Assembly (NCBI RefSeq): GCF_002095485.1
Contig: NZ_MLFS01000016.1
Coordinates: 1-64,000 of the forward strand
Length of the DNA: 64,000 nucleotides
From: Pantoea wallisii
GTDB taxonomy: Bacteria > Pseudomonadota > Gammaproteobacteria > Enterobacterales > Enterobacteriaceae
Reading direction: 5' to 3'
The position numbers were made by a program, and so were the translations under genes. Positions 9,894-58,014 of the stretch are shown piece after piece. The notes beneath the pieces were generated by a model. That model saw only the letters and a program-made list of their open reading frames with translations, was not told the DNA's origin and ran no database searches. The stretch's first letter is position 1. Each line of letters begins with the position of its first letter.

Positions 9894-9925
9894 TAAAAAA
9901 ACCCGCGCAGTGGCGCGGGTTTTTA
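9894..9925 (-). terminator. leu operon attenuator terminator
   Basis: On the reverse strand ACCCGCGC-CACT-GCGCGGGT is followed by a T run, lying between leuL and leuA. Stalling at the leucine codons of leuL should prevent this hairpin forming, the classic leu attenuation arrangement. Confidence 0.92.
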
Positions 9926-9943
9926 ACTTTCAGCAGGTTCGAA

Positions 9944-10027
9944 TCAGTTGTTGATTCCGCCCACGAGTCTACCGCGCAAACTGGATGCGTTAAGTAGTAG
10001 ACCGAGTAGGCGAGAAGTACGGAACAT
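9944..10027 (-). CDS. leuL: leu operon leader peptide LeuL
   Basis: A 27-codon peptide beginning MFRTSRLLGLLLNASS and ending GGINN. The core GLLLNASSLRGR is shared with E. coli LeuL (28 residues). It holds a cluster LL-G-LLL (codons CTA CTC GGT CTA CTA CTT), so five leucines lie within six codons, three of them the rare CTA. This is how the ribosome senses charged leucyl-tRNA. The attenuator lies about 20 bases downstream. Confidence 0.93.
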   Translation of the reverse strand: MFRTSRLLGLLLNASSLRGRLVGGINN

Positions 10028-10060
10028 GAATCAAACCTCGTAAATTGAGTGCTGTACATA

Positions 10061-50740: not shown

Positions 50741-50773
50741 CGCACGGCAATGAACGTGCGACATAAACGACGG

Positions 50774-50822
50774 GCCTGTCTTCTTGTGCTGTGAACCTGA
50801 AGCAAAGCATAAGAAGACAGGC
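50774..50822 (+). promoter_or_regulatory. Long inverted repeat between pdhR and aceE
   Basis: GCCTGTCTTCTTGTGCT (50774-50790) pairs with AGCATAAGAAGACAGGC (50806-50822) over 17 positions with a single G-T or mismatch position, loop 15 bases. It lies 45 bases before the aceE start with no T run. It may be an mRNA-processing or partial-attenuation element setting pdhR against aceEF levels. Confidence 0.6.
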
Positions 50823-50866
50823 TCCTGATAATTCAACGTATTAGACACAGATAAGGAATACACCCC

Positions 50867-57045: not shown

Positions 57046-57071
57046 GCTTTGTCTCTGAATAAATAAAGTAA

Positions 57072-57096
57072 CGGCTCCCGAAAGGAGCCGTTTTTT
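57072..57096 (+). terminator. lpd operon terminator
   Basis: CGGCTCC-CGAAA-GGAGCCG followed by six T, 27 bases after the lpd stop. Confidence 0.93.
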
Positions 57097-57191
57097 ATTA
57101 CAGGTACAACTTAAAAATATCGATAAAAAAGGCGCAAGGGCAAACATCCCGCGATGCCGGAATAGCGGGAGCGAACTCCCGCTAAAGAAGT

Positions 57192-57338
57192 TTACGGTTG
57201 AGCTTCGTAGGCCATGATAGCCGATAATTCAGCAGTGAATATCCGCAGTCGTAATTCGCAAAGCGAACTGCGACTGGCCAGACACAAACTTAACAGTATG
57301 AGCCCGCTGATAATCAGCGTGCTGAATCTTAACTTCAT
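57192..57338 (-). CDS. Hok/Gef-family type I toxin (48 residues)
   Basis: Small membrane peptide starting MKLRFSTLIISGLILLS with one hydrophobic helix (residues about 6-21). It then has the Hok C-terminal pattern SSLCELRLR...AELSAIMAYEAQP, which lines up with DLCEVRIRTGQTEVAVFTAYE of E. coli Hok proteins (conserved Cys, Glu and AYE). AAGGAG lies nine bases before the ATG. Hok proteins depolarise the inner membrane; their translation is normally blocked by antisense Sok RNA. The leader carries further hok-locus marks: TTAATTTTCATTAACCGCACGAG and, further up, GCGCTTGAGGCT-TCTGCCT. A hairpin (57167-57184) follows the stop, and a T run on the reverse strand (57125-57130) could end the transcript. 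Whether it is active is unknown. Confidence 0.88.
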   Translation of the reverse strand: MKLRFSTLIISGLILLSLCLASRSSLCELRLRIFTAELSAIMAYEAQP

Positions 57339-57359
57339 AATCACTTACTCCTTGCAATA

Positions 57360-57417
57360 GCACGAGCGAGCGACTACCCTGACATTGCTTAGGTGTCAGT
57401 GGGTCGCTCGCTCGTGC
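57360..57417. repeat. Long hairpin in the hok leader
   Basis: GCACGAGCGAGCGAC (57360-57374) pairs perfectly over 15 bases with GTCGCTCGCTCGTGC (57403-57417). The loop holds a second stem CTGACA (57379-57384) / TGTCAG (57394-57399). It ends about six bases before the hok ribosome-binding site, consistent with a translation-control structure in the hok mRNA and/or in the antisense RNA. Confidence 0.85.
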
Positions 57418-57445
57418 GGTTAATGAAAATTAATCGCACAACTCA
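57380..57445 (+). ncRNA. Candidate Sok-type antisense RNA
   Basis: Placed by analogy with hok/sok loci, where Sok runs opposite the hok leader and ends at a GTTAATGAAAATTAA hairpin. Here TGCGGTTAAT-GAAA-ATTAATCGCA (57415-57438) makes a near-perfect stem on the plus strand. Its promoter and exact ends are not identified, so boundaries are approximate. Confidence 0.45.
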
Positions 57446-57499
57446 CTCCTCACTATCCACCTCACTTGTCAGAACTTAAGGCAGATAGCCTCAAGCGCC

Positions 57500-58014
57500 G
57501 CAGGCAGTCTACGCGTTTTCCCTCTTATTTCATTATTTATTTCTTCTGTTTTGTTATTTTACTGAATGTTATTAATACATTTATCTTTTACGGGATTATT
57601 TAACTTAATTAGCCCATGAATATCATTTTTCTTTTATTTATTAAAAGATAACGGGATTGTGTGAATACAAAAGAGAGTAATAAATCCGGGCATGAATTGT
57701 ATGAAAAAGGGCTCTTAATAGTGCTGAATAAAATTATCAGCCCTGTATGGTGTTAGCTGCTGGCCTGCATAACCAGAAGTTAGCGAACTTTTCTGAAAAA
57801 GCAGAACAGGTTATGGATAGCGCTCTTTGTTAATGCGCCGATGTCACGCTGCTGGCGCTGTTTATCTGGCCCTGTCAAATAGCACGAGCCCGCTTCGGTA
57901 CTGCCCGGCAGAGGCTTAACGCATCTCAACAGACCCGGCAATTTTCTGTGATGTTGCTCAAGCCACAGATAAATCTGCTAAATAACGCGCGAATGTTGCT
58001 TTTTTGTAAACGGA
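57500..58014. other. hok-acnB spacer
   Basis: About 515 bases. The first half (57530-57720) is very AT-rich, unlike the rest of the window; the second half is of average composition. No coding frame or known RNA is recognised. The AT-rich stretch may hold the hok promoter on the reverse strand and could bind H-NS, which is inference. Confidence 0.5.

Follow-up and report, generated by a model that had tools for sequence, protein, structure and literature searches.

For the lpd-acnB spacer of Pantoea wallisii in the analyzed stretch of DNA (contig NZ_MLFS01000016.1, positions 1 to 64,000; this whole 64,000-nucleotide stretch is referred to as the window), the explanation that we favor, with a probability of about 0.88, is a Hok/Sok-family type I toxin-antitoxin locus that lies on the chromosome facing lpd and is old within the genus. 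It is a known system with a variant control region, and the altered control region is its interesting part; the function is predicted from sequence. An intact Hok ORF under purifying selection is found together with conserved, covarying structures of the hok mRNA and of Sok. The Hok/Sok identity, the hok-type leader and the plus-strand antisense RNA gene, all proposed in the first-pass annotation of this DNA, are backed as predictions by profile matches, conservation and covariation. The features assigned to the locus are given below by window coordinates.

57070..57092, both strands: two-way terminator between lpd and hok, terminator-like on both strands
57131..57140, minus strand: fbi (3' foldback inhibitor), CCCUUGCGCC, which pairs with tac
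57163..57184, minus strand: predicted 3' UTR hairpin after hok
57195..57338, minus strand (stop at 57192-57194): hok-type toxin ORF of 48 codons, recognized by Pfam HOK_GEF, dN/dS and hydropathy
57348..57351, minus strand: GGAG ribosome-binding site of hok, read from the sequence
57352..57380, plus strand: Sok promoter, TTGCAA, 17 nt, TACCCT, with this layout in 18/18 aligned copies
57360..57417, minus strand: Sok-target stem-loop with a perfect 15-bp stem (57360-57374 / 57403-57417) and the loop CCUAAGCAA, supported by covariation
57374..57385, minus strand: putative three-codon frame in the target loop, AUG-UCA-GGG-UAG, with such a frame in 20/20 copies
57387..57452, plus strand: predicted Sok antisense RNA, placed from promoter and hairpin, ends approximate
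57414..57439, plus strand: Sok 3' hairpin with GAAA loop, 13 pairs, 95.8% paired, 7 two-sided
57453..57488, minus strand: tac stem (57476-57488 / 57453-57465), 99.6% of cells paired, 4 two-sided pairs
57474..57496, minus strand: metastable 5' hairpin that cannot coexist with the tac stem, 9/9 pairs in 18/18 copies, 3 two-sided pairs
57490..57499, minus strand: tac, the 5' end, GGCGCUUGAG, with its first five fbi pairs invariant in 18/18 copies
57506..57511, minus strand: hok -10 box, TAGACT in 18/19 copies and CAGACT in the pseudogene G146

The 48-codon minus-strand ORF of Hok layout that had been described earlier is present, and the peptide encoded from 57338 to 57195, MKLRFSTLIISGLILLSLCLASRSSLCELRLRIFTAELSAIMAYEAQP, has hydrophobic residues at positions ~7-22 by hydropathy, followed by LCELRLR and a C-terminal AYE. 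The search against Hok profiles that the first-pass annotation had named beforehand as a check was above threshold in Pfam, where the peptide belongs to HOK_GEF (PF01848; 25.8 bits, curated cut-off 22), and below it in NCBIfam, whose Hok models were matched solely below their cut-offs; NF007279, for instance, gave 32.6 bits (E 5e-8) against a cut-off of 73. Judging from these scores, the window Hok is homologous to NF007279 yet lies outside that subfamily model. All ten rows of alignment A1 (nine distinct) match HOK_GEF at E <= 1. A search of 5.8 billion proteins returned nine matches, the window's own included, and three close relatives bear the source name 'Hok/Gef family protein'; annotation therefore does not always miss the family, which corrects the earlier remark that such a gene is easily missed. 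PADLOC gave no match for the locus. Purifying selection on the frame is evident among the 18 intact Pantoea ORFs, with a dN/dS of 0.22 (a ratio of means, dS being taken over pairs where it is finite) and pN<pS in 152 of 153 pairs; the pseudogene G146 was left out of both the dN/dS and the covariation counts, reducing 19 copies to 18. Abundant stops in relatives had been named as evidence against the gene, and 18 intact copies and this one pseudogene were found. By sequence comparison, the window locus is a real but divergent branch of Hok/Sok.

The leader of hok is highly structured. The two leader elements recognized previously, TTAATTTTCATTAACC and GCGCTTGAGGCTATCTGCCT (one base of the latter had been left open), both lie on the minus strand upstream of hok, and the 15-base perfect hairpin noted ahead of the ribosome-binding site is the target stem, whose arms are 28 nt apart and which lies just upstream of GGAG. 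Folding of minus-strand positions 57140-57520, another check proposed earlier, gave z = -7.67 with none of 100 shuffles equally stable, and the 71-nt hairpin region alone gave z = -8.67 (0/200 shuffles as stable). Upstream of the hok -10 box by 17 nt, 16 of the 19 copies have a hexamer with a TGAA end; a consensus scan for sigma-70 promoters had no hit for the hok promoter or the Sok promoter. Tac and fbi are terms for the ends of Hok/Sok mRNA. In the 18-sequence mRNA alignment, the tac stem, the target stem and the tac-fbi pairing jointly have 91.7% of cells paired and 10 two-sided pairs, in which both partners have changed; controls slid along the alignment reach 34-43% paired. None of 500 shuffles was as high on four of five covariation measures; the fifth, counting further pair types, was ordinary (269/500 shuffles for the mRNA helices and 314/500 for the metastable hairpin). 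Across the 18 copies, the 20-pair helix of the target stem is 86.9% paired with 5 two-sided pairs, and tac-fbi is 88.9% paired over ten pairs, one pair alone showing two-sided change. The window copy retains 12/13 pairs of the tac stem and 7/10 pairs of tac-fbi, for which the other 17 copies have 8-10 of 10. The metastable hairpin has 100% of its cells paired, its three two-sided pairs being reached by 9/500 shuffles, and it pairs fully on both strands in 5/18 sequences. Without guidance, RNAalifold recovered the tac and target stems as well as tac-fbi over its first five pairs; it also put the AUG of hok into the loop of a small hairpin (A2 columns 181-184 / 191-194) whose pairs most copies keep, with changes.

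On the opposite strand, the promoter pattern TTGNNN-17-TANNCT is found in 20/20 lpd-type copies; applied just as strictly to other Hok ORFs, it fits 21/60. The target loop contains a YUNR motif in 13/18 copies. Covariation of the Sok hairpin was counted over 18 sequences, 15 of them distinct, and its core forms 11/11 pairs on the antisense strand in 14/18, against 8-10 on the mRNA strand there. In the window copy no U-run follows this hairpin, and no terminator was called there. The window leader matches the Rfam sok model RF01794 at 45.3 bits (E 9e-9), which is below the gathering cut-off of 59; 14 of the 18 Pantoea copies match at E <= 0.01, four are without such a match and one passes 59, while the enteric controls L019 and L031 score 110.5 and 104.6 bits. 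G-U pairs were used as an indicator of the folded strand. Counted on the mRNA versus the antisense strand, they are 20 to 0 in the metastable hairpin and 65 to 0 in the tac stem (sum 85 to 0), and the Sok hairpin has 41 on the antisense and 2 on the mRNA strand; both strands therefore behave as selected RNAs. Those of the target stem lean to the mRNA (18 vs. 9 antisense), and tac-fbi has no strand preference (2 and 2).

If the locus operates as its family does, the full-length hok mRNA would be silent through 5'-3' (tac-fbi) pairing until 3' trimming takes off fbi; the metastable hairpin at the 5' end would then give way to the tac stem, making the target stem-loop accessible. Plus-strand Sok would pair with the target loop, and RNase III would cut the duplex. 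In a cell where Sok has been lost or cannot keep pace, the 48-residue peptide would enter the inner membrane and cause depolarisation. Because the usual mok start is absent, Sok would have to act via another upstream frame, which may be the three-codon frame or a mok that begins later or at a codon other than ATG; alternatively, it would act directly, by cleavage of the duplex or by keeping ribosomes from loading.

That absence was a point unmentioned in the first-pass annotation. Passages of one review describe mok translation as absolutely required for hok translation (PMC4147584), and those of a second likewise state that it is needed (PMC5668327), so the mok region is where the locus departs from its family. 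For comparison, 80 deduplicated Hok ORFs were collected by searching for L/I-C/Y-E as an obligatory motif, loci L076-L135 being omitted as repeats. They consist of 20 lpd-type ORFs, picked by the motif AELSA and including two paralogues (in G401 and G402) and one ORF from P. dispersa, and 60 others, 21 of which are from other Pantoea loci; L057, which has AELSA but lies away from lpd and does have an ATG frame overlapping hok, was manually reassigned to these others. An ATG at the mok position (-65 to -50) is present in 0/20 lpd-type ORFs and in 50/60 others, and GAGG precedes it in all 50 of these and in none of the lpd type. The lpd-type locus has no mok frame that overlaps hok from a start near -58. 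A frame that reaches hok from an ATG in the interval -75 to -30 is found in 0/20 versus 48/60 (Fisher p 6e-11, relatedness ignored). When the search is widened to -120 to -30, such frames appear in 2/20 versus 51/60, and from -120 to -10 in 8/20 versus 53/60; with GTG and TTG also allowed, the latter counts become 19/20 versus 53/60. The classical mok start appears to be gone in the lpd type, and a later or non-ATG start is possible in 19/20 copies. In other enteric Hok loci (L002-L031), the ATG found upstream at roughly -57 to -60 frequently shares the reading frame of hok, so mok there would be an N-terminally extended Hok.

Two readings of this region were weighed, and the counts from the -120 to -10 search raise the one in which a mok is retained and lower the one in which it is lost. 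A mok with a later or non-ATG start, by which the coupling would still be classical in kind, is possible, though short of an even chance. Frames of this sort exist in nearly all lpd-type copies when GTG and TTG are counted, as with the GUG at -25 and the UUG at -19 of the window copy, which are open to +107, and two of those found with ATG alone (L044 and L049) begin at upstream ATGs at -103/-79 and -82; by eye, CTG or GTG also occupies the mok position in some other ATG-less Hok loci (L149-L152, L051). However, at -65 to -50 an ATG/GTG/TTG frame to hok is found in 0/20 versus 49/60 others, the GAGG ribosome-binding site is lost along with the ATG, the late starts, at -35 to -19, are mostly outside the span predicted for Sok (-114 to -49), and L048 has no such start whatever.

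The other reading, tentative and likewise short of an even chance, is a working Hok/Sok lineage without mok. Instead of coupling through mok, such a lineage would use a minimal frame of three codons from start to stop, NUG-UYA-GNG-UAG, or Sok would control ribosome loading or duplex cleavage directly, in either case a route undescribed in the family literature consulted. The frame is found in the target loop of 20/20 deduplicated copies (17 AUG, 1 GUG, 2 CUG). Its conservation was rejected as proof of selection on the frame itself: UG lies in the conserved ACA/UGU helix and UAG in the Sok -10 box, so the frame was possibly fixed for other reasons. As for the direct routes, passages of one review note that hok is functional in an rnc strain and read this as supporting blocked translation as the chief mechanism (PMC4147584), which speaks against duplex cleavage alone.

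That the window copy is already decaying, with the ORF open and its RNA control eroding, is improbable. Its tac-fbi pairing is the weakest of the 18, one G is missing in the 5' end and the U-run is lacking after the Sok hairpin, so that partial decay in the window genome is possible; its relatives include the pseudogene G146 and the remnants G446, G428 and G421, and G427, its sister on the lpd tree, is without any trace. Against this, the window ORF is intact with low dN relative to dS against its relatives, the target stem is perfect over 15 bp, and both the Sok promoter and the Sok hairpin (11/11 core pairs) are intact.

The preferred reading, an old chromosomal Hok/Sok locus, also makes sense of where the copies lie. 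The window peptide is found in 25/61 genomes of the genus (E <= 0.001) and an lpd match in 60/61, and all 60 downstream regions were examined. In 19 of the 60, hok lies ~150 bp past lpd in the opposite direction, 18 copies being intact and the nineteenth being the pseudogene G146, with ATC where the start codon should be and a TGA in frame. Remnants were detected with a nucleotide profile in three more regions: in G446 the leader remains but the ORF is truncated, in G428 parts of the leader survive, and G421 has a degenerate copy. Weaker profile hits in G415 (E 0.02) and G405 (E 8) were uncounted, and 38/60 regions are without an accepted trace at the given sensitivity. On the lpd nucleotide tree, several nodes of which are poorly supported, carriers and remnants occur in several groups with hok-less species between them, and by eye the hok groups follow the lpd tree. 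This pattern fits old vertical descent, with an early gain in Pantoea and repeated loss. Fifteen named loci have the window peptide; the label is Pantoea for 12, Enterobacter for two and Erwinia for one, the latter three apparently being genomes classed in the window's own genus. Among the matches listed from 392 genomes of the family, no lpd-adjacent hok was seen outside the genus when Hok and lpd coordinates were compared by eye, and E. coli genomes had no match by DNA. In E. coli K-12 MG1655, unlike in the window, the lpd-acnB interval contains yacH and no annotated hok, in agreement with the earlier statement that this spacer is not a hok site in E. coli.

As an alternative to vertical descent, several independent insertions of a mobile hok next to lpd are very improbable. 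Related copies of the lpd-type Hok do occur elsewhere in G401 (L047) and G402 (L138 973-1125), so the module can move, and a 14-nt imperfect AT-rich inverted repeat (57058-57071 / 57528-57541, 86% complementary), which may be chance, flanks the window locus. Yet all 19 copies beside lpd share one position and orientation, same-site remnants persist in three further species, the hok groups track the lpd tree, and plasmids gave no match by protein or DNA. Insertion and an ancestral chromosomal copy had both been offered earlier as origins; given the shared site and orientation, the pseudogene and the remnants in Pantoea, the ancestral copy fits better. The three-codon frame is common to the copies in G401 and G402; the G402 copy is flanked by an ORF that by eye resembles proA and by a tRNA-Thr gene. 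Finally, a chance ORF beside an unrelated structured RNA, to which its shortness and a Pfam score 3.8 bits above the cut-off might point, is very unlikely in view of the purifying selection, the conserved frame and the family-type helices.

The closest known systems are Hok/Sok of plasmid R1 and its homologues flm, srnB and pndA, which, in the passages of two reviews that describe them, are alike in the Hok peptide, the target loop, the opposite-strand antisense Sok and the long structured leader, which in them is silenced until 3' trimming (PMC4147584; PMC5668327). Unlike these systems, the window locus has no mok start at the usual place and is chromosomal, facing lpd. The hok-sok of Erwinia amylovora is likened to it by family and chromosomal setting. 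The toxin of TisB/IstR-1 is unrelated to Hok and SOS-controlled, and that system is not known to have a tac/fbi plan; IstR-1 acts at an upstream ribosome-loading site. In the window type, Ser or Gly stands where, in what we take to be the alignment to HokB, the family's transmembrane Cys lies. According to passages of the respective sources, TisB/IstR-1 is a type I system repressed by a route other than Sok's (PMC4147584), and high induction of the E. amylovora hok is lethal (PMC7821729). In the open-access literature, we found no paper on this Pantoea locus or on mok-less hok. A Hok/Sok lineage that selection maintains in nature and that has no usual mok would make the rule that mok is required testable, and the lpd-type locus could separate Sok action via an upstream frame from duplex cleavage. 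It is also an example of a chromosomal toxin-antitoxin locus retained by some species and lost by others within one genus.

HokB, HokC, HokD and HokE of E. coli K-12 belong to the same toxin family and have the same Tyr/Cys alternation at two positions; A-to-I editing is reported to give Cys at position 29 of HokB, and in HokC, HokD and HokE the Cys at position 46 is likewise reported to be encoded through editing (PMC12214031). The Tyr-44 codon of the window hok (57207-57209, minus strand) is TAC with G as the next base. Cys replaces Tyr-44 in the lpd-type copies of G402 and G436 and in the paralogues of G401 and G402. Across the 80 deduplicated Hok ORFs, the 58 Tyr codons scored by script at the two alternating positions are all TAC and none TAT, the background in window ORFs, some of them spurious, being 231 TAC versus 198 TAT. 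Elsewhere in the window, Rfam matches above cut-off, all on the minus strand, are the tp2 sRNA (50745-50862), the leucine operon leader (9895-10040) and a TPP riboswitch (1891-1984).
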